Assembly: GCA_949297365.1 (NCBI GenBank)
Contig: CASFSL010000018.1
Location: 1 to 33,957 of the forward strand
Direction: 5' to 3'
From: an uncultured Bacteroidales bacterium
Lineage (GTDB): Bacteria; Bacteroidota; Bacteroidia; Bacteroidales; UBA932
Length of the DNA: 33,957 nt
Position numbers and translations under genes: made by a program. Every line of letters begins with the position of its first letter. Position 1 is the stretch's first letter. Shown here one piece after another: positions 176 through 30,046 of the stretch. Below the pieces are notes generated by a model that saw only the letters and a list, made by a program, of their open reading frames with translations, was not told the DNA's origin and made no database searches.

Positions 176-2764
176 TCAAGCCAACTTGACGACGGTGATG
201 CCGGCACCGCCGCGCTCGACGTGCTCGTCAGCGAATGAGACTACACCGGGGGTAATCTTCAGGAACTTGCGAATCTCTTCCTTGAGGACTCCGGCCCCCT
301 TGCCGTGGAGGATGGACACCTCGGAGACCCCGACCATCAGGGCGTCGTCGATAAAGTCGGTGACTGCCGGTATGGCCTCCTCCAGATGCATACCCCGGAC
401 ATCTATCGAGGGCTTGAAATTGAGCTTGCGCTCCGAGATGGAAGACGAGAGCCGCACACCGGACTTGACCGAAGCGGAAGACTTTACCGAGGCACGATAC
501 TGGTTGGCCGACAGAAGCGCAAGTTTGGAAACATCCACACGGGTCAGTATCTCACCTACGGCCACAGTGGCCTTCTTGCCAGAGACCTGTACCACCTCGC
601 CGGTCATGCCGCTGTCTTCAAGCCGTACATATGCACCGGGTTTGATACTTTCAGGTGCAGCATCATCCGGGGCACCGGCTCCAGGTACGCCGCCGGAAGT
701 TCCTCCAGAGAAGCCAAGCCCTGAAGGTGCGACAGAACTGCCGGAAACTGCCGGCCGACCATCCGGGGTTCCAGAGGCTGCGCGGCGGGCACGGCGTTCC
801 TCCTGCCGCCTCTTGCGCTCCACTATCTGGGCCATCTTCCGCTCGATGCGGGCCTCCATCTCGCTGCGGGCCGCCGAGTCATCGGCTACCGACGCGGCAA
901 AGTCCCGCAGTTCGGAACGCACCAGCTGAGTCCGCTCCTTCTCGGCCTGGGACTCGCGTATCTCCCGTATAGTCCGCTCTATCTGTCTGTTGGCCTGAGC
1001 CACTATCTCCGCTGCCTGGGCCTTGGCTTCTTCGAGCACGCTCTTGCGCAGGGCCTTTATCTCGGACAGCTCTTTCTCGTATTTTTCCGTCATGGAATCC
1101 AGAGTACGGTCGGCTGCCTTGACACGCACAAGCCGTTCCTCCAGTTCGCGCTTGTTGCGGGCTATCTTGCGCAGATTGCGCTCCACGGCCACATAATCCT
1201 TGCCGGCCCTCTCCTCGGCTCCGTGTACGATACTCTCCGGAAGTCCTATCTTCCGGGCCAGCTCAAAGGCAAAGGAATTGCCGGGCAGCCCTATCTCCAG
1301 ACGGAACAGCGGCTGGATCTTCTGCACGTCAAAGAGCATCGCCCCGTTGACGATACGGCTGCTGTTGCTGGCATAGAATTTCAGGTTGGTATAATGGGTG
1401 GTGATGACCCCGTAGCAGCCTTTTTTCTCAAACTCACTGAGTATCTCCTCGGCTATCGCGCCTCCGGCCGCCGGCTCGGTACCTGAGCCGAACTCGTCTA
1501 TGAGCACCAGAGAACGGTCATCGGCCAAGGTAACGGCCTCCTTCATGTTCAGCAGATGCGAGCTGTAGGTACTCAGGTCGTTCTCCAGCGACTGGTCATC
1601 GCCGATGTCCACGAACATATCGTGGAAGACCGTCAGTTCCGAGCTCTCCGAGGCCGGTACGGGCAGGCCCCACTGGAACATGTACTGCAGCAGGCCGACA
1701 GTCTTGAGGCATACCGACTTGCCGCCCGCATTGGGCCCGGATATCAGCAGGATGCGCTTGGCCGGAGTCAGCACGATATCCAGCGGCACTATCTTCCTGC
1801 CCTCCTTGGTCAGAGCCTCCTCCAGCAAAGGATGACGGGCCTGGCGCAGAATCAGCTCGCCCCTGTCGGAAAGCACCGGCTTGCCGCCCTTGAAGCGGGA
1901 GGCCACAGAGGCCTTGGCCATGATGAAATCCAGCTCGCCCATGAACTTCTGCGACTCGATGACATCGTCGATATAAGGTCTGAGAAAATCCGTAAACACC
2001 GTCAGTATCCGAAGTATCTCCCTCTGCTCCTCGAAGTGAAGCTCACGCAGCTGATTGTTGAGCTCGACCACCTCCATCGGCTCGATGAACGAGGTCCTGC
2101 CCGAAGCCGACTCGTCGTAAACTATGCCCGGCAGCTTTCTCTTGTTGCTGGAGGACACCGGTATCAGTACCTTGCCCTCACGTACAGACACCGAGGCATC
2201 GGCATCGGCCACACCCTCCTCCTGTGCCTTGCGCAGTATAGCCTGAATACGCCGCGACACAGCCCCCTCCTTGTCCTTGATGGCCCGGCGGATGGCATAC
2301 AACTCCTCGGAGGCGTTGTCGCGCACCTCCCCGTATTTGTCCAGAATCTCATCTATCCTCCGCAGAACTTCCGGGAAAGACAGCACTGCAGAGGCCATCT
2401 CCCTCAGCAGCGGATACTGCCCCTCCTTACAGCCGCTGAAAAATGCCAGAATCCTGCGCAGGGCATCCAGAGAGCCGCGCAGCACTATCAGCGAAGGCAG
2501 GTCGATATGTGAGTAAGGACTGCGCAGCGGCACCAGAAAGGGGATGCAGTCCCCGAAGCCGGAATTGGGAAATGCCGTCTCGAACATCAGGATCACCCGC
2601 ATCTCGTCGGCCAGACCCAGACGACGCTCTATCTCCGCCGGCTCAACGGACACAATCTCGCCCTCCGCCCTTTCCCGGCCATAACCGGTGGAACAACGGG
2701 CGGCGACACTCCCGCGGAGTTTGTCAAAACCCAGCTTGGCCTCTATCTTTACCTCATTTGTCAT
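176..2764 (-). CDS. mutS2: MutS2 family ATPase/endonuclease
   Basis: This 862-residue protein has the full MutS2 layout: an N-terminal core and clamp region, a MutS-type ATPase with Walker A GPNAGGKS near residue 342 and Walker B LVLIDEFGSGTEP near 416-428, a long charged coiled coil (about 520-670), and a C-terminal Smr nuclease domain with DVRGMH near 786 and LHGKGAG near 819. MutS2 proteins act in the cytoplasm on branched DNA, suppressing recombination, or on stalled ribosomes; the sequence does not say which applies here. A Gly/Ala/Pro/Ser-rich linker of about 45 residues precedes the Smr part. The start codon overlaps the stop of cdaA (ATGA, 4 nt), which supports both this start and translational coupling. 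It is the last gene of the C69 peptidase-cdaA-mutS2 unit. Confidence 0.97.
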   Translation of the reverse strand: MTNEVKIEAKLGFDKLRGSVAARCSTGYGRERAEGEIVSVEPAEIERRLGLADEMRVILMFETAFPNSGFGDCIPFLVPLRSPYSHIDLPSLIVLRGSLDALRRILAFFSGCKEGQYPLLREMASAVLSFPEVLRRIDEILDKYGEVRDNASEELYAIRRAIKDKEGAVSRRIQAILRKAQEEGVADADASVSVREGKVLIPVSSSNKRKLPGIVYDESASGRTSFIEPMEVVELNNQLRELHFEEQREILRILTVFTDFLRPYIDDVIESQKFMGELDFIMAKASVASRFKGGKPVLSDRGELILRQARHPLLEEALTKEGRKIVPLDIVLTPAKRILLISGPNAGGKSVCLKTVGLLQYMFQWGLPVPASESSELTVFHDMFVDIGDDQSLENDLSTYSSHLLNMKEAVTLADDRSLVLIDEFGSGTEPAAGGAIAEEILSEFEKKGCYGVITTHYTNLKFYASNSSRIVNGAMLFDVQKIQPLFRLEIGLPGNSFAFELARKIGLPESIVHGAEERAGKDYVAVERNLRKIARNKRELEERLVRVKAADRTLDSMTEKYEKELSEIKALRKSVLEEAKAQAAEIVAQANRQIERTIREIRESQAEKERTQLVRSELRDFAASVADDSAARSEMEARIERKMAQIVERKRRQEERRARRAASGTPDGRPAVSGSSVAPSGLGFSGGTSGGVPGAGAPDDAAPESIKPGAYVRLEDSGMTGEVVQVSGKKATVAVGEILTRVDVSKLALLSANQYRASVKSSASVKSGVRLSSSISERKLNFKPSIDVRGMHLEEAIPAVTDFIDDALMVGVSEVSILHGKGAGVLKEEIRKFLKITPGVVSFADEHVERGGAGITVVKLA

Positions 2765-3555
2765 ACGTTCTCCTTACGGTAGGAATTCTCAATCGAGAGC
2801 TTCAGCTCGCTCATGCTGGTGATGGTCTTCATCTCGCCCCCGCTTACGAAAGATATGTTGCCCGTCTCCTCAGACACCACGATGGCATCCGCGTCGGTAT
2901 CCTTGGTGATGCTGACGGCAGCCCTGTGCCTCATGCCGTACTGCGGCGGGATATCAGGGTTGTCCACTATCGGAAGGGTGCAGCGGGCGGCGATTATGCG
3001 GTCCGCGTCGATGACCATCGCCCCATCATGTAAAGGTGTGTTCTTATAGAAAATATTCTCTATCAGACGCCTGTTGACCGCCGCGTCTATGCGGTCCCCG
3101 GTCTCTGTGACGAACTCCAGGGAAGAGTTGTGCTGCAATACGATGAGGGCACCGGTGCGGGTATCGGCCATCCTGCGGCAGGCCTGGGTAATCTCGTCCA
3201 GGGCCGTGGCCTGTATTTCCTTGTCATTGCGTCCCAGCAGCAGACGGGTAAAAAGATTGTTGCGGGACGACGAGAGGTACTTGCTCCCTATGTGCAGCAG
3301 AAAACGGCGTATCTCCGGCTGGAAAATGACGATCAGCGCTATCACTCCGACTCCGAGGATCTGACCCAGAATCGAGGACAGCAGTTTCATGTTCAAGGCC
3401 TTCACCACTACCCATACCAGATAGAACAGCAGTATGCCGGTGACGATGTTGAACACAGAGGTACCGCGTATTATCCGCATCATCTGGTAGATCAGAAGAC
3501 CTACCAGGATGATGTCGATAATATCAATGACCGATATGTTGATGAAGTCAAACAT
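2761..3555 (-). CDS. cdaA: Diadenylate cyclase CdaA (c-di-AMP synthase)
   Basis: The 264-residue protein has three predicted N-terminal membrane helices (about 10-28, 34-53 and 60-81) followed by a DAC domain carrying the two signature motifs, DGA near 177 and RHR near 209. The family converts two ATP to cyclic di-AMP, a second messenger for osmotic and envelope homeostasis, at the inner face of the cytoplasmic membrane. Length and layout are those of a standard CdaA/DacA. It lies 19 bp after the C69 peptidase and overlaps mutS2 by 4 nt, so the three are probably cotranscribed. No CdaR-type regulator is adjacent. Identification is firm; the reason for this operon partner set is not known. Confidence 0.96.
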   Translation of the reverse strand: MFDFINISVIDIIDIILVGLLIYQMMRIIRGTSVFNIVTGILLFYLVWVVVKALNMKLLSSILGQILGVGVIALIVIFQPEIRRFLLHIGSKYLSSSRNNLFTRLLLGRNDKEIQATALDEITQACRRMADTRTGALIVLQHNSSLEFVTETGDRIDAAVNRRLIENIFYKNTPLHDGAMVIDADRIIAARCTLPIVDNPDIPPQYGMRHRAAVSITKDTDADAIVVSEETGNISFVSGGEMKTITSMSELKLSIENSYRKENV

Positions 3556-3574
3556 CCGGAGACTTAATACTTGA

Positions 3575-5284
3575 TTACTTTACTTCCAGGACCTCGCCTG
3601 CATCCTTGGCCACGACCTCTTTCCACTTGTCACTGTAGCCGGGCTGGTCGGGAGAGGCGGGGATGCGGTCGGAATATCCGTTATTGAGGAATGTTCCGTG
3701 CCCGTTCTCCTTCTTCACGTTGCCGTCCATATACTTGACGAGCAGGTAGATATCCAGCTCTTTCCATGTATCGAACAGACTCTGGGCCTGAGCGATGCTG
3801 TAAGTGGTCAGGAAGTCGCGGGTAGCCGCAATGCTCTCCTCGGTAGGAGTCTCGCCCAGAATCTTCAGAGCGGCGGCATCTATCTCCGGCTGTTCCTCTA
3901 TGGCTGCATTCTCACGGGCATCGATGACCTCGCGCACCTCGGGCTCGATACGGTCATAGAGCATATAGGCGAAATTGGCTATACGGTTGGTGACCCAGAA
4001 GAGGGATGTGGGGGAATACTCCAGCATACTGCCGTTGCCGACCTTGATGCAGCCAGGAATCTCATTGACTGTGGTATAGACGGGAGTAAGGCAGGAAGTA
4101 GCGGCATCGTCCGTGCCGAACCATATTACGCCTCCTATCTCGTCGGGCAGCCAGCTGCGGCTCTGGCACACAATCCAGAATCCGGTCTGCTGGGTGGCGA
4201 TGGCACGCTCATTGACATAGGTCTTGCCGTCATACTCGAACTCCATCGGTCTCCACCTGTAGGGAGTGTGATGTCCGCCTGCACCGGCATCAACGGTCAT
4301 GTCCATGGGCGAGCCCTCAAAATGGTCGCGCATCACGTCGGCCACATCCTTCAGGCTGACCTTCTCGGAAGGCTTCACGAAGAGAGGCAGACGGTTGTCG
4401 GCATTGTAACCCATGGCGAAATCCAGATACTCATCGGCCGGACGGTCTCCTATCACACCGTCGCAGAGGATGTTGAATGCCGACCATACCCTGGCCTCGC
4501 AGCCTCTCAGGGCTCCGAAGTTCAGGGGAGCATATGCGTCGCAGAAGCTGAACTCCTCGTCGGTACCCTCGAAGTAGCCCATCTCGCGGGCGAAATCCAC
4601 CACGTCCTCAGAGTAGAGCCAGTTCTCAGGGTCATCAAAGTTGATGTTGGTGATACGGGCCTGGTTGGCATGGGCGCAGATATATCCGTCCGGGACACGG
4701 GCTGCCACCCATACGATGCCCTTACGGACATTGCGGCCCTTCTTGTCCAGCTTGCTGCCCTTACCGATGAGCTCCATGATCCACACCTCGTCCTTGTCGG
4801 CTATCGAGAATGACTCGCCGCTGGAGGCATAGCCGTACTCATTGGCCAGGTCCGCTATGATCTGAATGGCCTCACGGGCTGTCCTGGCCCTCTGCAGGGT
4901 GATATAGATAAGCGAGCCGTAATCCATGATACCGTCCGGATCATAGAGCTCGGGACGGCCGCCGTATGTAGTCTCGGTGATGATGACCTGGTGCTCGTTC
5001 ATATTGCCCACTGTCTGATAGGTCCGGCCTATCTGGGGTATCTGGCCGAGGAAACGGCCTGTGTCCCATTCGGTCACATTGAGCATGATACCCGGCTTGA
5101 AGAAGCCCGCAGGGGTAAAATACAGTTCTCCGTAGAGCTGATGCGAGTCGGCCGCATAGGTCACAAGCACCGATCCGTCCTTGGAGGCACCTTTGGTTAC
5201 CAATACATTAGTACATGCAAGACCGCTCTGCACGGACATTATGGCAAAAGCGGCGCATAGTGCTGATTTCAGGAATTTATTCAT
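3575..5284 (-). CDS. C69 (U34) family dipeptidase, exported
   Basis: The 569-residue protein starts with a hydrophobic signal segment (residues 1-23) ending just before Cys24 in SGLACTNVLVTKGASKDGS. In the C69 family this cysteine becomes the N-terminal nucleophile, and the CTNVLV.KGAS.DGS pattern around it is typical. The family are Ntn-hydrolases that split dipeptides or short peptides; this one probably works in the periplasm or at the cell surface. Cys24 could be read as a lipobox cysteine, but the conserved catalytic context favours the nucleophile. It is the first gene of the unit leading to cdaA and mutS2, with a good promoter 41-72 bp upstream. The substrate cannot be read from the sequence. 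Confidence 0.93.
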   Translation of the reverse strand: MNKFLKSALCAAFAIMSVQSGLACTNVLVTKGASKDGSVLVTYAADSHQLYGELYFTPAGFFKPGIMLNVTEWDTGRFLGQIPQIGRTYQTVGNMNEHQVIITETTYGGRPELYDPDGIMDYGSLIYITLQRARTAREAIQIIADLANEYGYASSGESFSIADKDEVWIMELIGKGSKLDKKGRNVRKGIVWVAARVPDGYICAHANQARITNINFDDPENWLYSEDVVDFAREMGYFEGTDEEFSFCDAYAPLNFGALRGCEARVWSAFNILCDGVIGDRPADEYLDFAMGYNADNRLPLFVKPSEKVSLKDVADVMRDHFEGSPMDMTVDAGAGGHHTPYRWRPMEFEYDGKTYVNERAIATQQTGFWIVCQSRSWLPDEIGGVIWFGTDDAATSCLTPVYTTVNEIPGCIKVGNGSMLEYSPTSLFWVTNRIANFAYMLYDRIEPEVREVIDARENAAIEEQPEIDAAALKILGETPTEESIAATRDFLTTYSIAQAQSLFDTWKELDIYLLVKYMDGNVKKENGHGTFLNNGYSDRIPASPDQPGYSDKWKEVVAKDAGEVLEVK

Positions 5285-5324: not shown

Positions 5325-5356
5325 CAAAAGTAACACTTTTTAAATTCATATACAAA
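5325..5356 (-). promoter_or_regulatory. Bacteroidota-type promoter for the C69 peptidase-cdaA-mutS2 unit
   Basis: On the minus strand there is TTTG (5353-5356), a 20-bp spacer, then TACTTTTG (5325-5332). This matches the phylum's -33 TTTG and -7 TAnnTTTG consensus with correct spacing. Predicted transcription start is near 5319, leaving a leader of about 35 nt. The -33 end reaches to within 4 bp of the opposite gene's start codon. Confidence 0.65.
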
Positions 5357-5359
5357 AAG

Positions 5360-5797
5360 ATGACACGGGACATTATCATCAAGCTGATGCTCACACTGGC
5401 CGTACTGATATCGGCGACAGTGCTCCGCGCTCAGAACAAGGAAGAAGAGAAAACTCCGGAAGACATGGCGACAGAGGAAGCCAACCGCCTTGAGAGACTG
5501 CTCAAACTGGAGCCGCACCAGACATTTTTCATAGACTCCATACTGCAGCACGACATGAGGGCCATGCACGATGAGATTGAGGCCCTCAGGGCATCAGGGA
5601 CACAGGAATACACTGTATACAAGCAGGTTCAGAACAGATGGGTGGACCAGATAGACAGCTCGTATAGAAAAATCCTGACAGAATACCAGTACATGATATA
5701 CCGCCGGGACATCGGCAAACTCAGCAAGGAAGAGCTGAAAGTCCTCAAAGCTATGGAAAAGGCCGAGAAAAAAGCCCGCAAGGCCCAAAAAGAGTAA
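5360..5797 (+). CDS. Small secreted charged helical protein
   Basis: This 145-residue protein has a signal peptide (1-24, cleavage after LRA before Q25). A charged, mainly helical body follows, ending in a Lys/Glu/Ala-rich tail (about 118-145) likely to be a coiled coil. The core carries EANRLERLLKLEPHQ followed by helices with spaced Glu and Asp. This loosely resembles the small periplasmic helical proteins of the Spy/DUF4890 sort, which use a LxLTxxQ-like segment, but I do not firmly recognise a family. There is no Shine-Dalgarno sequence, only an A-rich stretch before the ATG, as is usual in this phylum. It stands alone, divergent from the C69 peptidase and convergent with the PHP gene. 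Envelope stress or chaperone-like work is a guess from the fold only. Confidence 0.85.
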   Translation: MTRDIIIKLMLTLAVLISATVLRAQNKEEEKTPEDMATEEANRLERLLKLEPHQTFFIDSILQHDMRAMHDEIEALRASGTQEYTVYKQVQNRWVDQIDSSYRKILTEYQYMIYRRDIGKLSKEELKVLKAMEKAEKKARKAQKE

Positions 5798-5812: not shown

Positions 5813-6649
5813 CTAAAGAGCCACAAAACCGGGGCGGCGGTCCTTATAGTAGACCTCGTATCTGAGGCCGGCAGCAAGAGCCGTCTGACGGCACCAGTCA
5901 AAGCGGTCGGCTATGCGCGTGATGTCATGGGCATCCGAGCCGAAGGACACGGCCTCGCCCCCGAGCTCCCGGAAACGCTTCAGGATATTGATATCCAGTT
6001 CCGGATGCCTTCCACGGTACAGTTGATAGGTCTTGGTGTTTATCTCCAGGGTCTTGCCGTTCTGCACCAGAAAAGTCAGGATTGAGTCCAGCACATCCGC
6101 AAAATCCGAATAGTATATCGTCACTTCCTTATAGTCCGGATAACGGACGATATAGTCGTAATGCCCGAGTATGTCAAAGTCCGGCATGACCCTTATAAGC
6201 CGGTCGAACTCCTCCAGATAGTGCCCGTACGCATACCGCCAGTCATAAGGCTTGTAGTAGTCCCCGAAATACGGGTCGTGGCCGTCTATCAGATGCAGGG
6301 AGGCTATCACGCAGTCAAACCTGTTGTCGGCTAGGATTCTCCGTATAGTCGGCATACTCTTGTCCTGCAGACCTATCTCCACTCCCTTGAGCAGCTGGAA
6401 GTCTCCGTACTTCCCTCCCCTGCCGTTCAGGCCCAGAAACTCCACGTCCTCGTCTATGGCCGTCTGCTGGGACGGTACGTCAAACGTGAAGTCAGCCACT
6501 CCCGCCGGAGGGTCAAAATCCAGATGGTCAGTAAGACACAGACCGCTCAGACCTCTCTCATACGCCGTCTTGACCGCATCCACTATATCCATGCGGGAGT
6601 CGGCAGAAAAATACGAATGACTGTGGTTGTCGAATAATCCGCCCTTCAT
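5813..6649 (-). CDS. PHP-domain phosphoesterase (HisJ-like)
   Basis: The 278-residue protein is a complete PHP domain. Metal-binding motifs are visible in order: DNHSHS (7-12), TDHLD (40-44), a glutamate in LKGVEIG, a histidine in IASLHLIDGHD, GHYDYIVRY near 162, and GSDAHD near 240. It most resembles HisJ-type histidinol phosphatases and has no signal peptide, so it should be cytoplasmic. There are no histidine biosynthesis genes nearby. It is the last gene of the seven-gene operon, 1 bp after the small lipoprotein. Other PHP enzymes remove phosphate from nucleotides or oligonucleotides, so in a nuclease operon a nucleotide substrate is an attractive alternative to histidinol phosphate. That is inference from context; the domain assignment itself is firm. 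Confidence 0.92.
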   Translation of the reverse strand: MKGGLFDNHSHSYFSADSRMDIVDAVKTAYERGLSGLCLTDHLDFDPPAGVADFTFDVPSQQTAIDEDVEFLGLNGRGGKYGDFQLLKGVEIGLQDKSMPTIRRILADNRFDCVIASLHLIDGHDPYFGDYYKPYDWRYAYGHYLEEFDRLIRVMPDFDILGHYDYIVRYPDYKEVTIYYSDFADVLDSILTFLVQNGKTLEINTKTYQLYRGRHPELDINILKRFRELGGEAVSFGSDAHDITRIADRFDWCRQTALAAGLRYEVYYKDRRPGFVAL

Positions 6650-6650
6650 A

Positions 6651-7064
6651 CTACCTTATCTCCTCCACGCTCCACGTTCCGGCCTCCGGGTCACGGACTA
6701 CCAGCACGCTGTTGCGCATAGGCTCCATCTCGTCCGGCACAAGGATATCAAAATCCACCATCACCGAGTCCCTGCTCAGCTCGTACACCTCGCCGGCCTG
6801 AGGCTCCAGCTCCGCAGCCAGTTCCAGAAACGCCGACTTGAGCGAGTCCGGCAGAGTCTCTATCTGCCTGGCGGACTCCTCCACCTTGGCGCGGAGCTCT
6901 TCCCCGCACATCGCCGCAGCCTTGTCATATTCGGCCGCGAAATACGCTTTCACAAAGCTTTCCGCCATATCTCCGGCTTCCCGTATATGGCGGTCAGCAC
7001 AGCCCTGGACAGCAGTCAGCACCACTGCCAGGGCCATCACTGCCAATACCTTTCTCATCGTCAT
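6651..7064 (-). CDS. Small lipoprotein, possibly NTF2/DUF4878-like
   Basis: This 137-residue protein has a signal peptide with a lipobox ending at Cys22 (AVQGC). The mature part pairs a helical N-terminal half (ESFVKAYFAAEYDKAAAMCG) with a beta-rich C-terminal half. That layout and the 'pool of substrate plus cavity' spacing recall NTF2-like/DUF4878 lipoproteins, but similarity is loose and I would not assign a function. It sits 6 bp after the DUF5689 lipoprotein and 1 bp before the PHP gene, deep in the operon. Either of two nearby methionines (MTMRK) could be the start; both give a good signal peptide. Confidence 0.85.
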   Translation of the reverse strand: MTMRKVLAVMALAVVLTAVQGCADRHIREAGDMAESFVKAYFAAEYDKAAAMCGEELRAKVEESARQIETLPDSLKSAFLELAAELEPQAGEVYELSRDSVMVDFDILVPDEMEPMRNSVLVVRDPEAGTWSVEEIR

Positions 7065-7070
7065 ACCCTG

Positions 7071-7910
7071 TTAGTCCAACACCTCGACTCCGTCCAGATC
7101 CAAAAGGACGAGCTGCCAGGTGTCGTTGAATTTTGTAAGAATACCGGTCAGGTTGCACCTCGTACCCAGAGATGTGATACCGCTCTCGATCACCTCCGTG
7201 TCCGCAAATGAGGCATATCCGCTGGTACGCACCACGACAGTGGCGTTATCCAGCCCGAAATTCTGCTCCCCGTAAGCGGCCTCACGTCCGGTATAAGGGT
7301 CGTTGCTTACAGCCCATGTACGGAGTCCGTCGGAACTGCCCTGGTACGACACATTCATAAGGCGCACGTAACGGCACACCATGGCGTCAGTCAGCATGGA
7401 GGATGTATCAATATCCGTGGGAGGCAGAGGGTCTCCGAACTCTCCCCTGAATATCGTCTTGTCGATAAGTCCCTGCACGTCCAGCCAGGATGTCTCGTAC
7501 CTGTCCTCGAAAGACTGCGCCCCGAGCTGTACGCTTCCGCCGTAAGTACCGAGATACAGGCCCTGCGGCTTCACATACAGAGTCTGGCCGAGCTTGTAGT
7601 CGTTGTACAGACCGGTCTTGCCTATCTTGACCTCCAGGCCGGCCGTGCTGTCCTCTATATAAAGAGTCCTGTAGACATTGCCGCTGCGGTCGGAGCTGAT
7701 AATCTTGCCCTCCAGGACGATTGATGCGTCCGTTATCTCCGTCGGCCCGCCCGTGTACATGGCCTTGAAATCCCTCAGAGTCATCGTGGCCGTCATGTCC
7801 GCGAACTCATACGGTGCCGGCTCGTCAAATTTCTTGCATCCAGAAAATGCCATGCAGGCTATAAGCAGCGCAGCTGAATATTTGATAATATTTCTCATCA
7901 CTGTATTCAT
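7071..7910 (-). CDS. DUF5689 domain lipoprotein
   Basis: The 279-residue protein has a lipoprotein signal peptide with lipobox cysteine at Cys25 (AFSGC), followed by KKFDEP. The acidic residues just after the cysteine resemble the Bacteroidota export signal for surface lipoproteins. The rest (about 40-279) looks like one DUF5689 unit: a first segment with TLRDFKAMYTGGP, then an OB-like beta barrel (GKIISSDRSGNVYRTLYIEDSTAGLEVKIG, positions split here by reading only), and a second beta half ending in WQLVLLDLDGVEVLD. It follows the TonB receptor with no spacing at all. It probably sits with the receptor on the outer membrane, in the place SusD has in sugar systems, but a ligand cannot be named. 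Confidence 0.9.
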   Translation of the reverse strand: MNTVMRNIIKYSAALLIACMAFSGCKKFDEPAPYEFADMTATMTLRDFKAMYTGGPTEITDASIVLEGKIISSDRSGNVYRTLYIEDSTAGLEVKIGKTGLYNDYKLGQTLYVKPQGLYLGTYGGSVQLGAQSFEDRYETSWLDVQGLIDKTIFRGEFGDPLPPTDIDTSSMLTDAMVCRYVRLMNVSYQGSSDGLRTWAVSNDPYTGREAAYGEQNFGLDNATVVVRTSGYASFADTEVIESGITSLGTRCNLTGILTKFNDTWQLVLLDLDGVEVLD

Positions 7911-10706
7911 TTAGAATCTGAAATATACGTTAATCATATAGTTGATGCCGTGCAGGTAGAAATACCTGGTGTCGAACGGCTCGTAGTGCATGAACTCGCC
8001 CTGGGCATCCTCCACGCGGGACAGTCTCATCTGCTCGTAACCGCCGGTCTTGATGTTGCGGTTGTTGAGGATGTTGTTGATGTTCGCGCTGACTCCGAGC
8101 AGATACTTGCCGCCGATGTACCAGGACTTGCCTATGTTGGCGTTGAGCACAAATGCGTGGGGGAACTGCTCCTGTTCCCTCATGGCGTTTATGAGAGCCA
8201 TGCCCTCCTCCGTGGAAGCATCCATGCCTTCAAGAGCATAGTCGGTACGGCGCAGGGGGTTCATGGAGATGTACATGCCGTCAAAGTAGTTCAGTTCGAT
8301 ACCGGCGAACAGATAGCCGGGACCGGCCCAGGTCAGGCCGATGGATGAGGCCAGATGAGGGGTACGCGCCACCTTGAAGCCCTCCCAGTACACAGTCTGG
8401 TTCTCCAGCACTGTCCTGGCGCTGTTGTCCACAGTCTGGGTGAAATTGGGATTGGACGTGTACTCGTAGTTGCCCCAGCTTACAGCGCCCTCGAATGCCA
8501 GACCGCCCCAGATAGGCACCTTGATTCCGGCCTCGATACCGTAATTGCGCTGGTCAATACCGGTCATGGAGAAGTTGGTGAAAGCTCTCTGGATATCATC
8601 ATAGAAGCTGATAAGGTCCGTCTGGTCGTTGATGGTGGTGTAGAACGCCGATACGCGGAGGGATATCCACGAGGTTTTCAGCATATAGTTGATATCCGCG
8701 CTGAATATCTTCTCGGTCGTAAGGCCGTCCACCACGCTGTTACGCGTTCTCGGCGACAGGAATGCCTCCTCAAAATAGGGGGCCTGCGTCATGTAGCCGA
8801 CATTGGCGTATATCATGTTCTGAGGTGAGAACTTGTAGTAAAGGCCCAGTTTAGCCTTGTATGTCAGGAAATTCAACTTTTCGGAATTGCCGAGAGAGTT
8901 GTCGGGGAAAAGGCCCTTGCGTACGAGACCCTCTCTCCAGAAAGTATTGTACCCCAGCTCAGCGCCGAGAGTGGCCTCGAAGCCGCCCACATTCAGGTCC
9001 CAGGCCGTCCACAGTCTGTGGTTGCGGATATGGGCATAATAGTCATAACCGTACTTGTCTCCCTCCTTTACCAGACGGTTGGGATTGTCCAGGTCATTCT
9101 GGTAAGCATCCTGATCCGAGCCGAAGTCCCTCTCGGCGAACTGGTCGATGTTGAGCCAGTAGTCACCGCCGAGCAGGTCCTTGACTATCTTGTAGTACTC
9201 GGTACGGTTCCAGCGGAAGTTGTATCCGAGCGAGCCTTTCAGTATGGAGCCGAAACTCTTGGTCACCTGACCGGTGACGTTGATGTCGTTCTGGTCCGTG
9301 CGTCTCTCCTCCAGGATGTACTTGGAGCGTGAGGCATTGGTCACGTCTATGGCCGGGTTATAGTCAATGCCCTCGTCAAATGTACTGTTGCGGTTCACAT
9401 CATATAGCCTGTCCCAGTTGATGTGCTGCACGTTGCTGTTGTATCTCCAGCCGTCCACGGCCCACGCGTATTTGTCGGGGTCATCGTCAAAATAGCTCGG
9501 CAGATAGCGGTAGTAGTCCGGACGAGGGTCGGGAGCATCGTACCAGTCGAGAGCCGAGTAGCCATTGCGGCCGAAACGCCATGACACGCCGGCCGTCACT
9601 TTCAGGTCATCGAACGGAGTGTACTCGTAGTTGAACAGGAGCACCGGCTCATGGTTGTTCCTCACACGGGCATTGCGCACCTTGCCGTTCTGGTAGCCCC
9701 AGTTGGAGTTGTAGTAGTTGCTGCCCATCAGGTCGTACACCTCCTGGGTGGAGGCGTTCTGGGCACCGCGCTGTACGGGCGAGCCGAAGAGGGTCAGCGA
9801 GAAACGGTGCTGGTCATTCAGTCTCTTCTCCGCCGCAAGGAAATATGCAAAGGCGTTGTAGTACACGCCGGTGATATAGTCGTTGCCGCCCAGACGGGTA
9901 GACACTGAGGCCGCGAAGGCCCAGCCGTTGTCCATAAGGCCGGTGGCATAAGTGGCCATCAGACGCAGACGGTAGGTGGAACTGTTGGTCAGCACGCTGA
10001 AACGGTATCCTTTGGCAACCGTAGACGCATAGGCATTGACATTGGTGAGTCCGTTGATTCCGCCCACACCGTAGTCGGACAGGGCCATGCCGCCCACTGC
10101 CTCTTTCTCTCTTGTTGCCTCGTTCAGACCACTGAAGAGAGAATAGGGAGTGTAGCCGCTCAGGGCGTCATTGAACTTGATGCCGTTGATGTAGATATCC
10201 GACATTCCGCTCTCGTAACCTCGATTGAGGAAACGCATCGCGCTGAAACTGAACGACGCTATGTTGTCGAACACGTCCTGCGAGGCGGACAGTACCGACG
10301 GCACGTCCTCATAGCCTGAGCCGGACTCGTCCTCCACCTCGAAGTCCGCGAACATATCGTCGCTCATGAAGTCCGTCATCGGCACATCGGGAGTCAGGGA
10401 CACATTCATAAGGTCGTAGACCTCCCCTCCGCTGACCCTGACACTGAGCCGTGTCTTCAGGTATCCGGCGGCGGAGACCTCCATATCGTACACTCCGTCC
10501 TCTATGTCCAGGAACTCAAATACGCCGTCCTCTCCGGTATATACAAACATTTCCCTCTCAGTGTAGAACAACGTCACTTTCGCGTCTTTCACCGGGCGGG
10601 ATGCGTCGCGGTCCATGACCGTTCCCTTCACTCCTCCGGTCTGCGCCAGGGCGGGAAGGGCGGCCAGCATCAGCACAAACGCTGCAATAGCTGTCTTGAT
10701 TTTCAT
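7911..10706 (-). CDS. TonB-dependent outer membrane receptor
   Basis: The 931-residue protein has a cleavable signal peptide (1-21), a carboxypeptidase regulatory-like beta sandwich (about 25-108) typical of Bacteroidota transporters, an acidic linker, a plug region (about 150-240, with SDIYINGIKFNDAL and EAVGGMALSDYGVGGI) and a C-terminal 22-strand-type barrel rich in Tyr, Asn and Gly, ending in aromatic YFRF. Such receptors import substrates across the outer membrane using TonB energy. There is no SusD partner; a DUF5689 lipoprotein follows directly instead. Upstream in the same operon are two secreted nucleases, so nucleic acid fragments or nucleotides are the likely cargo. That substrate is inferred from context. 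Identification as a receptor is firm. Confidence 0.94.
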   Translation of the reverse strand: MKIKTAIAAFVLMLAALPALAQTGGVKGTVMDRDASRPVKDAKVTLFYTEREMFVYTGEDGVFEFLDIEDGVYDMEVSAAGYLKTRLSVRVSGGEVYDLMNVSLTPDVPMTDFMSDDMFADFEVEDESGSGYEDVPSVLSASQDVFDNIASFSFSAMRFLNRGYESGMSDIYINGIKFNDALSGYTPYSLFSGLNEATREKEAVGGMALSDYGVGGINGLTNVNAYASTVAKGYRFSVLTNSSTYRLRLMATYATGLMDNGWAFAASVSTRLGGNDYITGVYYNAFAYFLAAEKRLNDQHRFSLTLFGSPVQRGAQNASTQEVYDLMGSNYYNSNWGYQNGKVRNARVRNNHEPVLLFNYEYTPFDDLKVTAGVSWRFGRNGYSALDWYDAPDPRPDYYRYLPSYFDDDPDKYAWAVDGWRYNSNVQHINWDRLYDVNRNSTFDEGIDYNPAIDVTNASRSKYILEERRTDQNDINVTGQVTKSFGSILKGSLGYNFRWNRTEYYKIVKDLLGGDYWLNIDQFAERDFGSDQDAYQNDLDNPNRLVKEGDKYGYDYYAHIRNHRLWTAWDLNVGGFEATLGAELGYNTFWREGLVRKGLFPDNSLGNSEKLNFLTYKAKLGLYYKFSPQNMIYANVGYMTQAPYFEEAFLSPRTRNSVVDGLTTEKIFSADINYMLKTSWISLRVSAFYTTINDQTDLISFYDDIQRAFTNFSMTGIDQRNYGIEAGIKVPIWGGLAFEGAVSWGNYEYTSNPNFTQTVDNSARTVLENQTVYWEGFKVARTPHLASSIGLTWAGPGYLFAGIELNYFDGMYISMNPLRRTDYALEGMDASTEEGMALINAMREQEQFPHAFVLNANIGKSWYIGGKYLLGVSANINNILNNRNIKTGGYEQMRLSRVEDAQGEFMHYEPFDTRYFYLHGINYMINVYFRF

Positions 10707-10723
10707 AAATTCTGTATTCTGTT

Positions 10724-11755
10724 CTATTTACCTATTACTATATATACCGGAAGATGGTCGCTGTATCCTCCGAGGAACGAATTGCCGCTGAACGAGCGCA
10801 GGGGATAGTTCTTGTACCGGCCCTTCTGCTGGATCATGTAACTGCGCTTGAATATCCTGCCGTACATATCCTTGTCCGAAGGAAGCAGATGCAGCGAGCC
10901 GCTGTCCTGCCCTATGAGATTGTAATTGACAACGATATTGTCGAATAAATTCCACGCATCCTGATAGCCGATGGTGCCGTAACCGGCCCTGTGCAGGCTC
11001 CACATGGGATTGAAATATCCGCCTGGCTCCACTTGGGAGACCTTCTCCTTGGCCCCGAGGGTCTCGGAAAGGCTCTTGTTGTACGGGTCGTCGTTCATGT
11101 CGCCCATGATTACGATCTTGATATCAGGGTACACAGTCTGGAGCGAATCGGCATAGCGGCGCACTGTCTCGGCGCAGCCCACCCTAAGATACTCCGAGGC
11201 GGCCGAGCCTCCGCGGCGGGAGGACCAGTGATTGACGAAGAAACAGAACCGCTCGCCCTCTATCGTGCCGCATACGGCCAGGATGTCACGGGTCTTGAAA
11301 TCCGGAATCTCGGGTATCACCGGCTGGAACACGTCGCTCCACTCCAGCTGGAACACATCCGGACGGAAAAGTAGGGCCACATCGATACCCCTTGGCTCCG
11401 GCGAGTCGTACTGCACTATCTGATAACGGGCAGGACGCAGACTCTCAGTTGAGACCAGGTCCTCCAGCACCCTGCGGTTCTCCACCTCGGAGAGACCGAT
11501 GACTGCCGGATAGTCCTTATTGGCAGCCGCTATCCCGTACAGCACCCGGGATATGTTGGCCAGCTTCTTGTCGTACTTGGCCTGCGACCACTCCTTGGGA
11601 CCGTCGGGAGTGAACTCCTCGTCCCTCGTTGCGGGATCGTCGTAGATGTCGAAGAAGTTCTCGACATTGTAGAATGTCACCACGTAGCTCTTGTCCTCAG
11701 CCCTGAGGGAGAAGACAGCCAGAAGCAACACTGCGGTCAGAATCAATTTCCTCAT
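10724..11755 (-). CDS. Secreted endonuclease/exonuclease/phosphatase family protein
   Basis: This 343-residue protein has a signal peptide (1-19, cleavage after LRA) and a full EEP-fold domain. Active-site motifs are in the expected order: YNVENFF (Asn30, Glu32), SEVENRR near 88, VNHWSSRRGG near 174, GDMNDDPYN near 218 and SDHLPV near 333. The fold is metal-dependent and cleaves phosphodiesters in DNA, RNA or phospholipids; NVENFFD and NHWSSRRGG are features of the secreted nuclease subgroup in Bacteroidota. It lacks a lipobox, so it is probably periplasmic or released. It lies 17 bp before the TonB receptor and 24 bp after the DRGH endonuclease, fitting a shared role in breaking down nucleic acid outside the cytoplasm. 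Confidence 0.93.
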   Translation of the reverse strand: MRKLILTAVLLLAVFSLRAEDKSYVVTFYNVENFFDIYDDPATRDEEFTPDGPKEWSQAKYDKKLANISRVLYGIAAANKDYPAVIGLSEVENRRVLEDLVSTESLRPARYQIVQYDSPEPRGIDVALLFRPDVFQLEWSDVFQPVIPEIPDFKTRDILAVCGTIEGERFCFFVNHWSSRRGGSAASEYLRVGCAETVRRYADSLQTVYPDIKIVIMGDMNDDPYNKSLSETLGAKEKVSQVEPGGYFNPMWSLHRAGYGTIGYQDAWNLFDNIVVNYNLIGQDSGSLHLLPSDKDMYGRIFKRSYMIQQKGRYKNYPLRSFSGNSFLGGYSDHLPVYIVIGK

Positions 11756-11779
11756 CTTATACAGGTTTTGGTTTTTAGT

Positions 11780-13327
11780 TTAAAATCCCCATCGGCTCGG
11801 CTCGCACTGGTCCTTCACTGACTCAGCCACGCCCCGGGGCAGGTTGTTGAAAAATGCAAATCCGGTCATCGCCTCGACTTCCGCGACGGAGCACATATCC
11901 GACGAATTAGGATTGCTGCGGCTGTATTCCTCATTGTCAAATACAAACGCCACGGAATAATATGCCGAAGTGGAGACCGTATAACTCAGCACGGCCTTGA
12001 AATAGCCGTCAGGGACAGCCACCCGGTTGCCGGCATTGTCCTCCGTCCAACGCGACGGTTCTCCTTTGTCAAATATAGGCCCCGTAACCACATACAGAGT
12101 GTCAGGATTTAAGTTCTTACCATCACTCAAAAAGCCGCGCACCCTGTTTTCCAGATTGGCCCAGATATTCTGATTGAAACCGGATACCTGAGCAGTCATG
12201 TTGGTATAATAGAATGTCTGGCGGTTCATGGCCGTGTTGGCGTTGCGGGAGCCTGAGGGTATCTGATGCCCCCGGTCGAAGCCTCTCTCGGGCCAGCCGT
12301 GATTGAGCAGCGGCTCATACTCGTCCGGTATCTTGGGGTCATATCCCCATGCGTCCGTTCGCCCGCTGCCTATATAGTCGCTGCACAGCGGGTATGCCAC
12401 CCATAAGGCAATCCTCCCGGCCGCATCATACAGCATGGAGTAATTGCGTTTCTGCTGTCCGTCCACCTCCGCTGTATGGTATATGAATGCCCTGCCCTCC
12501 TCATCTTCCACTGCAGGAAGTTCCAGCCAGCCCGACTGATACGGATCGGACTTCAGGCCCGGCCAGTCCGGATCGGTCCCGGGATCTTCTCCCTCCTTAT
12601 GCGAGATGTAATAGGCCGGAGTGTCCGTTCCGCCTCCCTGGGCCTCTCCCCGATGCTCACCTCTAACCGTAGCCAGAGTGAGGATATCTCCCTCCCTGAG
12701 TCCGAGGGATGAGAACGATTTGTCGTTGCTGTCCAAAGGGCCTTCGGCTGTCAGGCCGTAGATGTACACCTGACCTGTCCCGTCCTCTATGGTCAGATTG
12801 CCGTATGTGCCGTCCTCTATATCCGTTATGTATCCGGTCAGCTTATACCAGACCGTATCGTCCGGCTCCGCCGCCAGAAACTCCTCCACTGTGGCAGTGA
12901 TGAGCCCCTCTATATCCGGGTCTGGGTCTTCACCGCCGGAAGCATTCGGGTCTCCTTTCTGCACCAGTGTGACCGTTATCAGTTCTCCGTCCGAAAAACT
13001 GACATTCACGGCTACCTCCCTGTCCGAACGGCTTTCATTCTCCGAGTACAGCAGCATCACGTTATTGGCACTGCCGCTGCCGGACTCCGGAGAGACACTT
13101 GCCCACCCTGTCTGCGCACCGTCATAGCCGAGCGATATGCTCCAGTCCCCGAACGACTCTATCGTCACGAACTGTCCCGTATGGTCATACGCGACAGTAT
13201 CCCTGGACAGCACTACCATGTTCTCCTTCCCGGCCTCACGCCCATCGTCCGTACATGAAGACAGTAATACTGCCGGCATCACTGCCAGCAGTACCACAAT
13301 CCTCAATAATATATGCTTAAATGACAT
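11780..13327 (-). CDS. Surface lipoprotein with BACON, OB-like and DNA/RNA endonuclease domains
   Basis: The 515-residue protein has a lipoprotein signal (Cys25 in LLSSC, then TDDG, acidic as in surface-export signals). A BACON-like domain follows (about 37-125), then an OB-like module (about 140-248) nearly the same as one in the lipoprotein encoded just upstream, and finally a NucA/EndA-type DNA/RNA non-specific endonuclease domain (about 265-515). The catalytic motif DRGHQIPSGSR is near 349-359, and a downstream N-rich helix (FNQNIWANLENRVR) supplies the expected metal-binding asparagine region. Such enzymes cut single- and double-stranded DNA and RNA. Placement in the operon, 15 bp after the lamin-tail lipoprotein, suggests a surface nuclease feeding the TonB receptor. 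Confidence 0.92.
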   Translation of the reverse strand: MSFKHILLRIVVLLAVMPAVLLSSCTDDGREAGKENMVVLSRDTVAYDHTGQFVTIESFGDWSISLGYDGAQTGWASVSPESGSGSANNVMLLYSENESRSDREVAVNVSFSDGELITVTLVQKGDPNASGGEDPDPDIEGLITATVEEFLAAEPDDTVWYKLTGYITDIEDGTYGNLTIEDGTGQVYIYGLTAEGPLDSNDKSFSSLGLREGDILTLATVRGEHRGEAQGGGTDTPAYYISHKEGEDPGTDPDWPGLKSDPYQSGWLELPAVEDEEGRAFIYHTAEVDGQQKRNYSMLYDAAGRIALWVAYPLCSDYIGSGRTDAWGYDPKIPDEYEPLLNHGWPERGFDRGHQIPSGSRNANTAMNRQTFYYTNMTAQVSGFNQNIWANLENRVRGFLSDGKNLNPDTLYVVTGPIFDKGEPSRWTEDNAGNRVAVPDGYFKAVLSYTVSTSAYYSVAFVFDNEEYSRSNPNSSDMCSVAEVEAMTGFAFFNNLPRGVAESVKDQCEPSRWGF

Positions 13328-13342
13328 CCGTCAGACAGTTAT

Positions 13343-15802
13343 TTAGAATGAGCCCAGGCCTGAGACATCATCTTTTGATGATTGCTCCCATTCATCAATA
13401 TTAAATTCCGTAGTGGGTGCCGTAACGGTCGTTTTACGCCTGAATGTTTTATCTTTGCCCCATTCTATCTTTTCTCCTATATATCCGACTACATCTGCAT
13501 TCTCGCCATTGCATGTCAATACTATAGCGTCATCTCCATTGAAGTTTACCGCCGTATTGGATTCCGAATCAACCCCTTCCGGCAAAGTCAATGCAGCGTC
13601 TGCGTGTTTATAAACTTTAACAGCACCCGGTTCAAGAGTTCCCTCTAAAGCGACTGTTGATTCAGGAGATGTTTTTCCATTAGAGTACAACACAAGCGCA
13701 TACGATGCAAGGTTTACAGTTTTGTCAGAAATATTTGCAATCTCTATGTACTTATTAGAACTGCTGCCCTCAACATACTCGGAAATGATAAGAGCTGTAG
13801 GATCTCCTTCCGGAACATCCGGTGTCTCTCCTTCCTCGTGCGAGATATAATATGCAGGTCCGCCTACCTGAGCCTTGCCGTTATACTCATCTCTGGTACC
13901 AACCAGCGTCACGATATCTCCCTCCTTGAGTCCGAGTTCCGAGAAAGACTGGTCATTACTGCTTACTTTCTCCTTTGTCAGACCATAAACCAGAACAGAA
14001 CCGGTCCCGTCTACAAGAGTGAAGTTTCCGTACGACGTGTTGTAAAGGTCAGTTATCTCGCCGGTAAGCTGATACCAGACACTGCCACTTACTGATGCTT
14101 TAAGAAACTCATCAACTGATACTTTCTTAATCGTAGGATCATCCGGCTCGTCACCGCCGCCCTGATTTTCTCCACTGCCGAATGCCACATCATCTATACG
14201 GTAGGTGTTGCTCTTACCGGTATAACGGATAGCTATAGCAAGTGACGATGCTGACGAATACGCCGACAGATCCACTGTCTCCTCTGAATAAACATTCAAT
14301 TTACTATCATTGGGGATAGTGCAGTCCTTGATTACTGTCCATGTGGCAGTCTCAAAGTTTCCTGTAAAATTGGAAGAGACCACTACTTCCAACTTGCTGT
14401 CATCTCCGTTGTCTCTGTAATAAAGAGCCTTGCGGAAAGTAAACGTCTTCGGATCGGCCTTGGTAACATCAGCCCTCGGCGGCAAAGCATAGGCCACTAC
14501 CTGATCAGCCGAAGAATTAAACGGTGCTATACTTATGTACTTGGTACCGTCTTTATCGAATATTTCAGTCTTGAAGCCTGTAGTAATATCAGAACCATCA
14601 GATGTGTAGAACATCCAGTTGTCATTCTCATATCGCTGGTATTTTTCCGTTATAGATTCAAAATCATCTGAGAATGAAGCAAGAGGACCTACTGCGTTCC
14701 ACGCATTATAGTCTCCTGTGGTCTCGCTTATTACAGGTATCTCCCCCTCATCAAAGCGCTCACCGGTAAGACCGGCATAGTCATCAGTGGATGTAATGCT
14801 GATCTGGTATGTGCCGCCACCATATACTGCTGCAATACCCTTAAGAGTTCCGCTGCCTTCAGGCACTGTCTCTTTTCCAAACGTGGAGTATGCGGATGAA
14901 AAAAGAACGAATCTCTCACCTGTCCTTGCTATAAAATTGATGGATCTATGACTGCTATCCGCGGGCCCATATTCCACAAATGTCTTGCCGCGATCGGCAT
15001 CGCTGACCTGTACATCGGTCACAGCCACATACTGGGACTCATACTCGCCGGTCACAAGCTCGGATGCCGAGATAGTCTTGGCCTCAACCTGCTGGCCTGA
15101 TGTCAGCTTAGTGACTCTGTCCATGGGTACGGCATCAATCTGGAGTGACCCATTCTGATAACGCTGGAGAGTCAAGTCCTTGACTTTTACCTCCACTTTG
15201 TCTCCAAGAGCAAAGTCAGTGTTGTTCTCTGCCAGATACAGAGTGATACCGGCTGTCTCGTCCTGTATAACCATCGTCTTCTGCGATGTAGCATTGTTCA
15301 GTCCGCCGCTTTTTGCGTGACGGTAGTTGCTGATGACAGTTCCGCAGATAGTCCAGTCTTCGGTAATTGTCACATTCTCTCCATTATACAAAGCCCTTAC
15401 GTCAGCTATAGCATCATACTGCCTGGCTATCTCGCCCGGCTGAGATACTGAGACAGTAGCACTTACTGCACCTGCCTTAAATGTTACAGTCGCATATCTG
15501 TCCTCATTTGAATTGGGTACCGCCGTGAATACCACCGACACAGAATCAGTCGACGGTGCTCCGCTGGCCGGAGACACTACCAGCCAGTCCACTTCTCCAT
15601 CGGTACTGGTTATCTCTGCTGTCCAGTCACGGGTTGAGAGTATCCTGATTGTCTGCTCTCCTCCGTCTTTAGTGAAAGTCACGGATTCCGTACTTGCCCC
15701 GATATTGGCTATTCCGAAATCCTGGTTTTCGTTCTTTTTGCAGGATGCGATTGCAGCCAGAATCATGACTGCGCCTGCCAGTTTAACTAAAAATTTTAAC
15801 AT
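13343..15802 (-). CDS. Multidomain lipoprotein: BACON, DUF5689, jelly-roll-like, OB-like, lamin-tail
   Basis: This 819-residue protein is a chain of beta modules after a lipobox at Cys21 (AIASC, then KKNENQD). In order I see a BACON-like domain (about 30-125), a DUF5689-like segment (about 128-345), a beta-sandwich resembling choice-of-anchor J domains (about 365-545), an OB-like module (about 560-665) shared with the endonuclease lipoprotein, and a C-terminal lamin-tail domain (about 680-800; ISEYVEGSSSNKYIEIANIS and NGDDAIVLTCNG are characteristic). Lamin-tail domains often accompany secreted nucleases and phosphoesterases and may bind nucleic acid or act as scaffolds. It is the first gene of the seven-gene operon. 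No catalytic motif is seen, so it is probably the surface capture or scaffold part. Confidence 0.9.
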   Translation of the reverse strand: MLKFLVKLAGAVMILAAIASCKKNENQDFGIANIGASTESVTFTKDGGEQTIRILSTRDWTAEITSTDGEVDWLVVSPASGAPSTDSVSVVFTAVPNSNEDRYATVTFKAGAVSATVSVSQPGEIARQYDAIADVRALYNGENVTITEDWTICGTVISNYRHAKSGGLNNATSQKTMVIQDETAGITLYLAENNTDFALGDKVEVKVKDLTLQRYQNGSLQIDAVPMDRVTKLTSGQQVEAKTISASELVTGEYESQYVAVTDVQVSDADRGKTFVEYGPADSSHRSINFIARTGERFVLFSSAYSTFGKETVPEGSGTLKGIAAVYGGGTYQISITSTDDYAGLTGERFDEGEIPVISETTGDYNAWNAVGPLASFSDDFESITEKYQRYENDNWMFYTSDGSDITTGFKTEIFDKDGTKYISIAPFNSSADQVVAYALPPRADVTKADPKTFTFRKALYYRDNGDDSKLEVVVSSNFTGNFETATWTVIKDCTIPNDSKLNVYSEETVDLSAYSSASSLAIAIRYTGKSNTYRIDDVAFGSGENQGGGDEPDDPTIKKVSVDEFLKASVSGSVWYQLTGEITDLYNTSYGNFTLVDGTGSVLVYGLTKEKVSSNDQSFSELGLKEGDIVTLVGTRDEYNGKAQVGGPAYYISHEEGETPDVPEGDPTALIISEYVEGSSSNKYIEIANISDKTVNLASYALVLYSNGKTSPESTVALEGTLEPGAVKVYKHADAALTLPEGVDSESNTAVNFNGDDAIVLTCNGENADVVGYIGEKIEWGKDKTFRRKTTVTAPTTEFNIDEWEQSSKDDVSGLGSF

Positions 15803-15854: not shown

Positions 15855-15862
15855 CAAAGATA
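15855..15862 (-). promoter_or_regulatory. -7 promoter element of the nuclease/TonB operon
   Basis: On the minus strand TATCTTTG exactly fits TAnnTTTG and lies 53 bp before the lamin-tail lipoprotein start in an AT-rich stretch. Predicted start of transcription is near 15848. No clear -33 TTTG is found at 19-21 bp, which could mean the promoter needs an activator or is weak. Confidence 0.5.
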
Positions 15863-16210
15863 TAACTTTTTATAAATACACTATTTTAAATTTTCGTTAC
15901 AATCTTTTTTATGTCGGATTTTTCCTATCCATCAGCACCTTTATCCATACTTTCCATTCAAGTCCAGGACCACACCCGCGACACCTGTCCAGTGCTCCTA
16001 TAGAAGCAACTCGATGTTTATTAAGCATATACCAAAGATAGTCCGAAGACAGGTCCCCGCAGCCGACTGGACATCCGACATTGCTTCAATGCCCGGTCAA
16101 TCAGGCGGTTGCGATACAACTAAAAAGCAACGTGAGAATGCCGGAAGGATTGGATCGGAAGAATTGGGCCGGAAGAATGGGGCTGAGAGATGGGCCGGGC
16201 GGTCGTTCTT

Positions 16211-30024: not shown

Positions 30025-30046
30025 CACACGACATAAAGGCACAACT

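Follow-up and report, generated by a model that had tools for sequence, protein, structure and literature searches.

A seven-gene Bacteroidales operon of exported nucleases, a TonB-dependent transporter and surface lipoproteins as a probable DNA import system

Among the Bacteroidota, the closest described counterpart of the locus reported here stems from Riemerella anatipestifer, in which RA0C_RS04915, an outer-membrane protein with a CarboxypepD_reg domain, adjoins RA0C_RS04920, a protein with a DUF5689 and a DUF5017 domain, and in which, according to the accessible part of a report built on a transposon screen, clean deletion of either gene brought transformation below detection (PMC8459023). 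The same part of that report assigns the degradation of one strand to a protein still to be identified, although ComEC itself might carry it out (PMC8459023), and the available text of another study states that tonBA and tonBB mutants transform less, the tonBA mutant without a defect in iron uptake (PMC8383284). In Porphyromonas gingivalis, a member of the Bacteroidales, ComEA, ComEC and ComF were described as needed in 2024, with the outer-membrane step of the DNA unclear in the accessible portion of that paper (PMC11532111). In the present study, we describe seven minus-strand genes at positions 5813 to 15802 of a 33,957-nucleotide stretch from an uncultured Bacteroidales bacterium (assembly GCA_949297365.1, contig CASFSL010000018.1; hereafter the window), which with a probability of about 70% form a cell-surface DNA import machine, since relatives of their receptor and lipoprotein are needed for DNA uptake in another bacterium and are found here together with nucleases.

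Other known systems resemble the operon in single traits. SusCD importers share the combination of a TonB-dependent transporter with an N-terminal CarboxypepD_reg domain and a surface lipoprotein, but none of the seven window proteins matches a SusD family in Pfam, and the window's receptor belongs to one clade that is kept across orders and has BtuB as its highest-ranked folds. As for ExeM and NucH, the lamin-tail part of the operon's first protein matches NF033680 and its EEP nuclease matches NF033681, with 131.1 and 31 bits both far below the respective cut-offs of 1300 and 300, and here these parts belong to different proteins, encoded next to a transporter. EndA of Streptococcus pneumoniae is, as we understand it, a surface nuclease of the DRGH class that is used in DNA uptake, and thus in the role that we propose for the DRGH nuclease of the window; the latter, in contrast, is a PF01223 protein and a lipoprotein of a Gram-negative bacterium, which by analogy may act in transformation. 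Within the open-licence part of PubMed Central, which leaves most subscription papers outside, the term DUF5689 was found in one paper only (PMC8459023), and the searches made there brought no account of either the five-gene or the seven-gene form of the operon.

A gene neighbourhood probably shared with a Riemerella transformation locus

The core of the operon consists of an exported EEP nuclease (gene 3, 10724..11755), an 'A-type' TonB-dependent outer-membrane transporter with an N-terminal CarboxypepD_reg domain (gene 4, 7911..10706) and a DUF5689 lipoprotein (gene 5, 7071..7910; 156.7 bits with Pfam), all on the minus strand, and by its predicted gene content this core is the same neighbourhood as the Riemerella transformation locus. 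The comparison was made with the genome G500, which we take to be Riemerella anatipestifer from its gene order: recA is followed by four open reading frames (ORFs), comEC, two further ORFs, a divergent EEP gene, the receptor gene and the gene of a DUF5689-DUF5017 lipoprotein, and this order fits the locus tags RA0C_RS04870, 04895, 04910, 04915 and 04920. The G500 lipoprotein passes the cut-off of the M949_1556 family (NF052645) with 599 against 475 bits. The window's DUF5689 protein reaches 73.6 bits with the same model, below the curated cut-off of 475, and is for this reason not filed in that subfamily.

What both loci share is the transporter clade, the adjacent DUF5689 lipoprotein and the EEP gene next door, with identities between window and G500 of 30% for the receptor, 39% for the EEP nuclease and 30% over 302 columns for the DUF5689 part. 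They differ in that the window genes form one same-strand block that includes the EEP gene, in that a DRGH nuclease, an OB/lamin-tail lipoprotein, a PHP protein and a small lipoprotein are added, in that the window's lipoprotein is devoid of the DUF5017/choice-of-anchor J half, and in that comEC lies on another contig of the window genome. In a receptor tree calculated with a quick method, 40 A-type sequences including those of the window and G500 were set apart from 16 paralogues with an SH-aLRT of 100. A 'B-type' receptor family had also been considered as the transformation receptor and was rejected on the basis of the profile scores (713 against 242 bits for the G500 receptor) and the receptor tree. 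These B-type TonB receptors (L060-L075 and L114) are paralogues with 20-30% identity to the window's receptor; at the one B-type locus of which a neighbour was scanned (L065) a DUF5017 protein was found, and at L114 about 1.8 kb separate the B-type gene from a receptor of the A-type.

In the flavobacterial family of G500, a receptor match at E <=0.001, a threshold that admits paralogues, was present in 195 of 197 genomes, and one at 1e-100 or better in all but 6 of the 197. Twelve further loci of this family carry the EEP gene in 11 cases and comEC beside the receptor in three (L220-L222), and at two loci from another genus of the family (L111 and L112) the receptor is flanked by Rho, superoxide dismutase and DUF6146 genes and not by comEC.

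Gene order is conserved far beyond chance, so that the check in relatives on which the original prediction had made itself dependent was run and did not go against it. The receptor is encoded in 10 of 18 same-genus genomes (67-98% identity), and the five-gene block of first lipoprotein, DRGH nuclease, EEP, receptor and DUF5689 lipoprotein is intact in all nine of these loci that reach upstream, the tenth beginning inside the EEP gene. Of six loci in further genera of the family, five keep the five-gene order; for other families of the order, eight loci were mapped, and in five of the six that reach upstream the EEP gene lies divergently beside the receptor, without the DRGH nuclease. From 582 confirmed stretches of named genomes, the best 80 were kept. 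In these, the DUF5689 gene directly follows the receptor in 75, the EEP gene adjoins it in 71 of 76 (62 on the same strand, nine divergent, five without; four of the 80 left out for short upstream sequence), and the DRGH nuclease is found in 57 of 67, every one with a same-strand EEP gene (13 left out for the same reason). From the sequences, the DRGH nuclease and the first lipoprotein are additions to the core in many Bacteroidales. Cultured carriers of the receptor locus include Bacteroides reticulotermitis JCM 10512, a termite-gut isolate with the five-gene block (L162), and B. pyogenes.

Similar linkage was found across the phylum. Twenty loci picked via lipoprotein matches (18 from the same class and two from the same order, with the lipoprotein linkage given by choice) contained the receptor in 19 cases and the EEP gene in all 19 of these. 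In a sample of 395 genomes, 59 encode a full-length receptor of at least 600 bits, one further receptor (G280) being split by a stop, and in 52 of the 59 a match to the NF052645 model, C-terminal-only matches excluded, lies no more than 600 bp from the receptor. For the remaining seven, the lipoprotein gene is located at 608-820 bp in five and 37.9 kb away in G362, and in G075 none is listed on the contig.

Predicted functions of the individual proteins

The families that had been assigned from the sequence alone were confirmed with Pfam and NCBIfam, except that the plug and barrel of the receptor went without a match and that the PHP protein passes a HisJ cut-off. Gene 2 (11780..13327, minus strand) encodes a lipoprotein with a BACON-like part and a DRGH (Endonuclease_NS, NS) nuclease domain, which meets the curated score of PF01223 with 155 against 23 bits and in a PDB search matches bacterial nucleases as well as EndoG/EXOG. 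Its residues H354, N385 and E393 are invariant in 61 of 61 aligned relatives, and Cys25 is kept in 98% of them. The EEP nuclease meets the curated score of PF19580 (Exo_endo_phos_3) with 375.8 against 27 bits, and N30, E92, H176, D219, N221, D333 and H334 are invariant in all 69 aligned sequences; the EEP protein of G500 retains the conserved residues, too. With the catalytic roles that we presume for these positions, the two nucleases can be regarded as intact, as had been proposed. Their export signals were likewise borne out, as assessed by visual inspection and, in relatives, with a permissive lipobox pattern: the pattern occurs in 45/61 NS nucleases, 67/75 DUF5689 proteins, 50/55 first-gene proteins and 7/62 EEP nucleases. 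The EEP protein of the window has no lipobox and is probably periplasmic. An extra DRGH nuclease gene directly follows the DUF5689 gene in Bacteroides reticulotermitis (L162:12844-14112), and two genomes from the same family as the window carry a second EEP gene at this place (L046:13198-14223 and L048:6072-7094); in other loci a gene of about 670 aa is frequent after DUF5689, encoding an M3 peptidase in the one case scanned.

For the receptor, the Pfam scan found only the N-terminal CarboxypepD_reg domain and no Plug or TonB_dep_Rec match. Since the structure model contains the whole TonB-receptor fold with plug and beta-barrel, we attribute the missing match to a limit of those Pfam models, and the earlier assignment as a TonB receptor stands on the predicted fold. 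A structure search with the receptor ranked BtuB folds at the top, and BtuB-BtuG was among the rows. The transporter is a likely DNA channel, and the DUF5689 lipoprotein is likely its surface partner. Comparison of the DUF5689 profile with solved structures gave nothing better than E 1, and a pairwise profile comparison gave a weak OB-like hint for residues 61-125 of the window's protein (probability 65%). The genome encodes a third DUF5689 protein (L077, C21:55567-56169), a 799-aa ORF with DUF6562, DUF5689 and lamin-tail domains that is related to the first protein of the operon; no receptor was found in the 3.6 kb fetched for this locus.

Gene 1 (13343..15802, minus strand) encodes a surface lipoprotein in which Pfam recognizes BACON, DUF5689, OB and lamin-tail (LTD) parts, the OB match being weak; with an OB profile built in this analysis, residues 577-653 reach 50 bits. 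First-gene proteins were found at 56 of the best 80 loci, and 51 of these were aligned with that of the window. The resulting 52 proteins are highly diverged (mean column identity 12%), with the lipid-bearing Cys21 invariant in all 52, and contain, at E <=0.01, BACON in 43, an OB-fold (tRNA_anti-codon) in 21, DUF5689 in 16 and a lamin tail in two; our own profile found OB domains in 31 of 57 first-gene proteins. This domain content suggests that gene 1 likely encodes a nucleic-acid-binding surface protein for DNA capture.

The last two genes, also on the minus strand, encode a small lipoprotein that has no family above the cut-off in Pfam or NCBIfam (gene 6, 6651..7064) and a HisJ-like PHP-domain phosphoesterase, assigned by Pfam and NCBIfam, in which no export signal was seen (gene 7, 5813..6649). 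With the HisJ family model, the PHP protein reaches 105.2 bits, above the cut-off of 90.2, and hisB (IGPD) was not found in the 95%-complete window genome; if hisB is truly absent, the enzyme would lie outside the usual histidine pathway and a role in salvage would be possible, though unsupported. Within the genus, the small lipoprotein is present at 8 and the PHP gene at 6 of 10 receptor loci, and in the mapped stretches of the best 80 loci at three and two, respectively. Both were seen in the window's genus only and thus appear as lineage-specific additions; that the PHP enzyme, to which the original prediction had given the final phosphate removal, and the small lipoprotein belong to the system in general is not supported.

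Possible mechanism and competing explanations

From the anatomy of the proteins, the following sequence of capture, cutting, TonB-driven import and trimming can be imagined. Gene 1, with its OB, DUF5689 and lamin-tail parts, and the DUF5689 lipoprotein would hold DNA at the surface, where the lipidated DRGH nuclease would nick or shorten it. The transporter with its DUF5689 partner would then pull the DNA across the outer membrane at the expense of TonB energy, and the exported EEP nuclease would trim it in the periplasm. The product could be passed to ComEA/ComEC for transformation, enter nucleotide salvage, or both. In a more far-reaching form, which we put forward only tentatively, Bacteroidota would import DNA without a type IV pilus, the OB/lamin-tail and EndA-like DRGH lipoproteins would feed the TonB-driven transporter, the EEP nuclease would produce the single strand for ComEC, and the seven-gene form would serve recombination or feeding.

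Among the competence proteins, the window genome encodes ComEC, DprA, a ComEA-like HHH protein (a 282-aa frame with a hydrophobic N-terminal stretch as judged by eye) and a ComF-like protein (82.7 bits, below the cut-off of 233.55). ComEC and DprA are nearly universal among relatives (58/59 and 57/59), and their presence does not track the receptor. The window's ComEC (L079, C5:33700-34425) is a 460-aa ORF in which the Competence domain is cut at position 236 of 270, and frames of about 690-770 aa were found in 13 of 23 other-family genomes with a match and in four of 34 family relatives. The short form is no proof of loss, since in the accessible part of the P. gingivalis study the ComEC domain spans residues 213-488 of the protein (PMC11532111).

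Several observations weigh against DNA import. ComEC is short not only in the window genome but also in 18/18 same-genus genomes and 30/34 family relatives (open frames of 357-494 aa), and although ComEC and DprA are present in all 18 genomes of the genus, the receptor is found in 10 only and missing from eight. A TonB box is only presumed for the receptor, the linker of which (residues 108-141) is modelled with low confidence. Little identity is shared with the Riemerella-like proteins, 30% for the receptor and 30% for the lipoprotein over the shared half, neither a DRGH nuclease nor a first lipoprotein was seen in the Riemerella-like locus, and comEC lies beside the receptor in only three of six genomes of G500's genus, with no such link in L218, L219 and L223. 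The genetic evidence is a single report, in whose accessible part no complementation of either deletion was seen and the EEP gene did not emerge from the 3,000 mutants screened (PMC8459023), and in the literature found no member of the Bacteroidales is reported to have been tested. Finally, the available text on M949_1556, the family of the Riemerella lipoprotein, links it to lipopolysaccharide and antigenicity, from which an indirect effect through the envelope is possible. An envelope or surface-assembly transporter, the loss of which would block transformation only indirectly, would nevertheless leave the steady nuclease neighbours and the OB domains of the 31 first-gene proteins unexplained, and we regard it as improbable. 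That unrelated genes have been packed together by chance, for which the variable presence of the PHP and small lipoprotein genes among close relatives could be cited, is already contradicted by the five-gene order, which many Bacteroidales keep, and by the three-gene core, which is found in further orders as well, and can practically be dismissed.

The remaining two explanations are narrower forms of DNA import that differ in the fate of the product, the first of them overlapping with it. A nutritional nucleic acid locus, as originally predicted, would cut DNA or RNA with its surface nucleases, import the pieces through the transporter and free phosphate, sugar and base by further enzymes. Consistent with this, two nucleases with invariant catalytic residues adjoin the importer, the NS nuclease occurs only with the same-strand block, additional EEP or NS genes follow DUF5689 in L046, L048 and L162, eight same-genus genomes have ComEC and DprA without the receptor, and a PHP enzyme is encoded in a genome in which hisB was not found. 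In the accessible part of a phosphate-depletion study of Flavobacterium johnsoniae, the EEP protein Fjoh_0074, not known to be the EEP of this operon, was weakly raised, and the phosphate-starvation nucleases seen there are marked as orphan (PMC8115612), the latter speaking against feeding. Moreover, Pfam recognized among the seven proteins no family of nucleoside kinases, phosphorylases or nucleotide transporters, and the sole genetic data found on the transporter-lipoprotein pair concern transformation, which argues against feeding as the only role. Taken together, a nutritional locus is conceivable, if somewhat short of even odds. 

Transformation without any feeding, in which the EEP nuclease would turn double into single strands for ComEC and the DRGH lipoprotein would act like pneumococcal EndA, as we assume that enzyme to work, is rather unlikely. 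The EEP gene lies beside the transporter in most loci, including the comEC-linked L220-L222, its Riemerella-like product retains the conserved residues, and the vacant strand-degrading step would offer it a place, unless ComEC fills it; against this stand the miss in the mutant screen, the short ComEC, the patchy receptor in a genus with constant ComEC and DprA, and the consideration that active surface nucleases could destroy donor DNA. What stands of the original prediction is an uptake system in which a DUF5689 protein takes the place of SusD next to exported nucleases, as the pair is conserved and its Riemerella counterpart is essential for transformation. The feeding role is the part that changes, since the published role is transformation and none of the present findings demonstrates feeding: by analogy with Riemerella, nucleic acid uptake is genetically supported for transformation rather than for feeding, and the better-supported reading is an import of DNA as in Riemerella, to which nucleases have been added in the Bacteroidales.

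Operon layout, neighbouring genes and significance

The seven minus-strand ORFs are separated by 15, 24, 17, 0, 6 and 1 bp, exactly as first described. A motif TATCTTTG on the minus strand (15855..15862), which we take to be a Bacteroidetes-type -7 promoter motif, as we do its pattern TANNTTTG, lies 52 bp upstream of the start codon of gene 1, with a second copy at 16033-16040. The pattern occurs 20 times in the window against 12.5 expected, a number reached by 3 of 100 shuffles. A terminator-like hairpin with a T run (5772..5786, minus strand) lies 26 bp past the last stop codon; with 11 such hairpins in the region against 7.9 +/- 2.6 expected it is weak alone, yet its position fits. From the motif before gene 1 and the hairpin after gene 7, the seven genes are likely read as one transcript.

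Downstream, genes for a C69 dipeptidase and the diadenylate cyclase CdaA (window positions 2761-5284) adjoin the block at 8 of the 10 receptor loci of the genus. That they form a unit of their own is suggested by a promoter-like motif at 5325-5332, and a MutS2-like gene comes after the pair. Outside the operon, at 28177-33073, the gene of an LPP20-like protein overlaps that of a protein of 1041 aa that has PEGA repeats as well as a CarboxypepD_reg domain.

Overall, the operon provides a precise candidate, open to direct testing, for the way in which DNA crosses the outer membrane in the Bacteroidales. Its genes are named in cultured relatives, among them Bacteroides reticulotermitis, and its EEP nuclease is an addition that is absent from the published Riemerella model. 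If long DNA is a substrate of the system, a polymer for which other Gram-negative bacteria use a pilus would here move through a TonB-dependent transporter.

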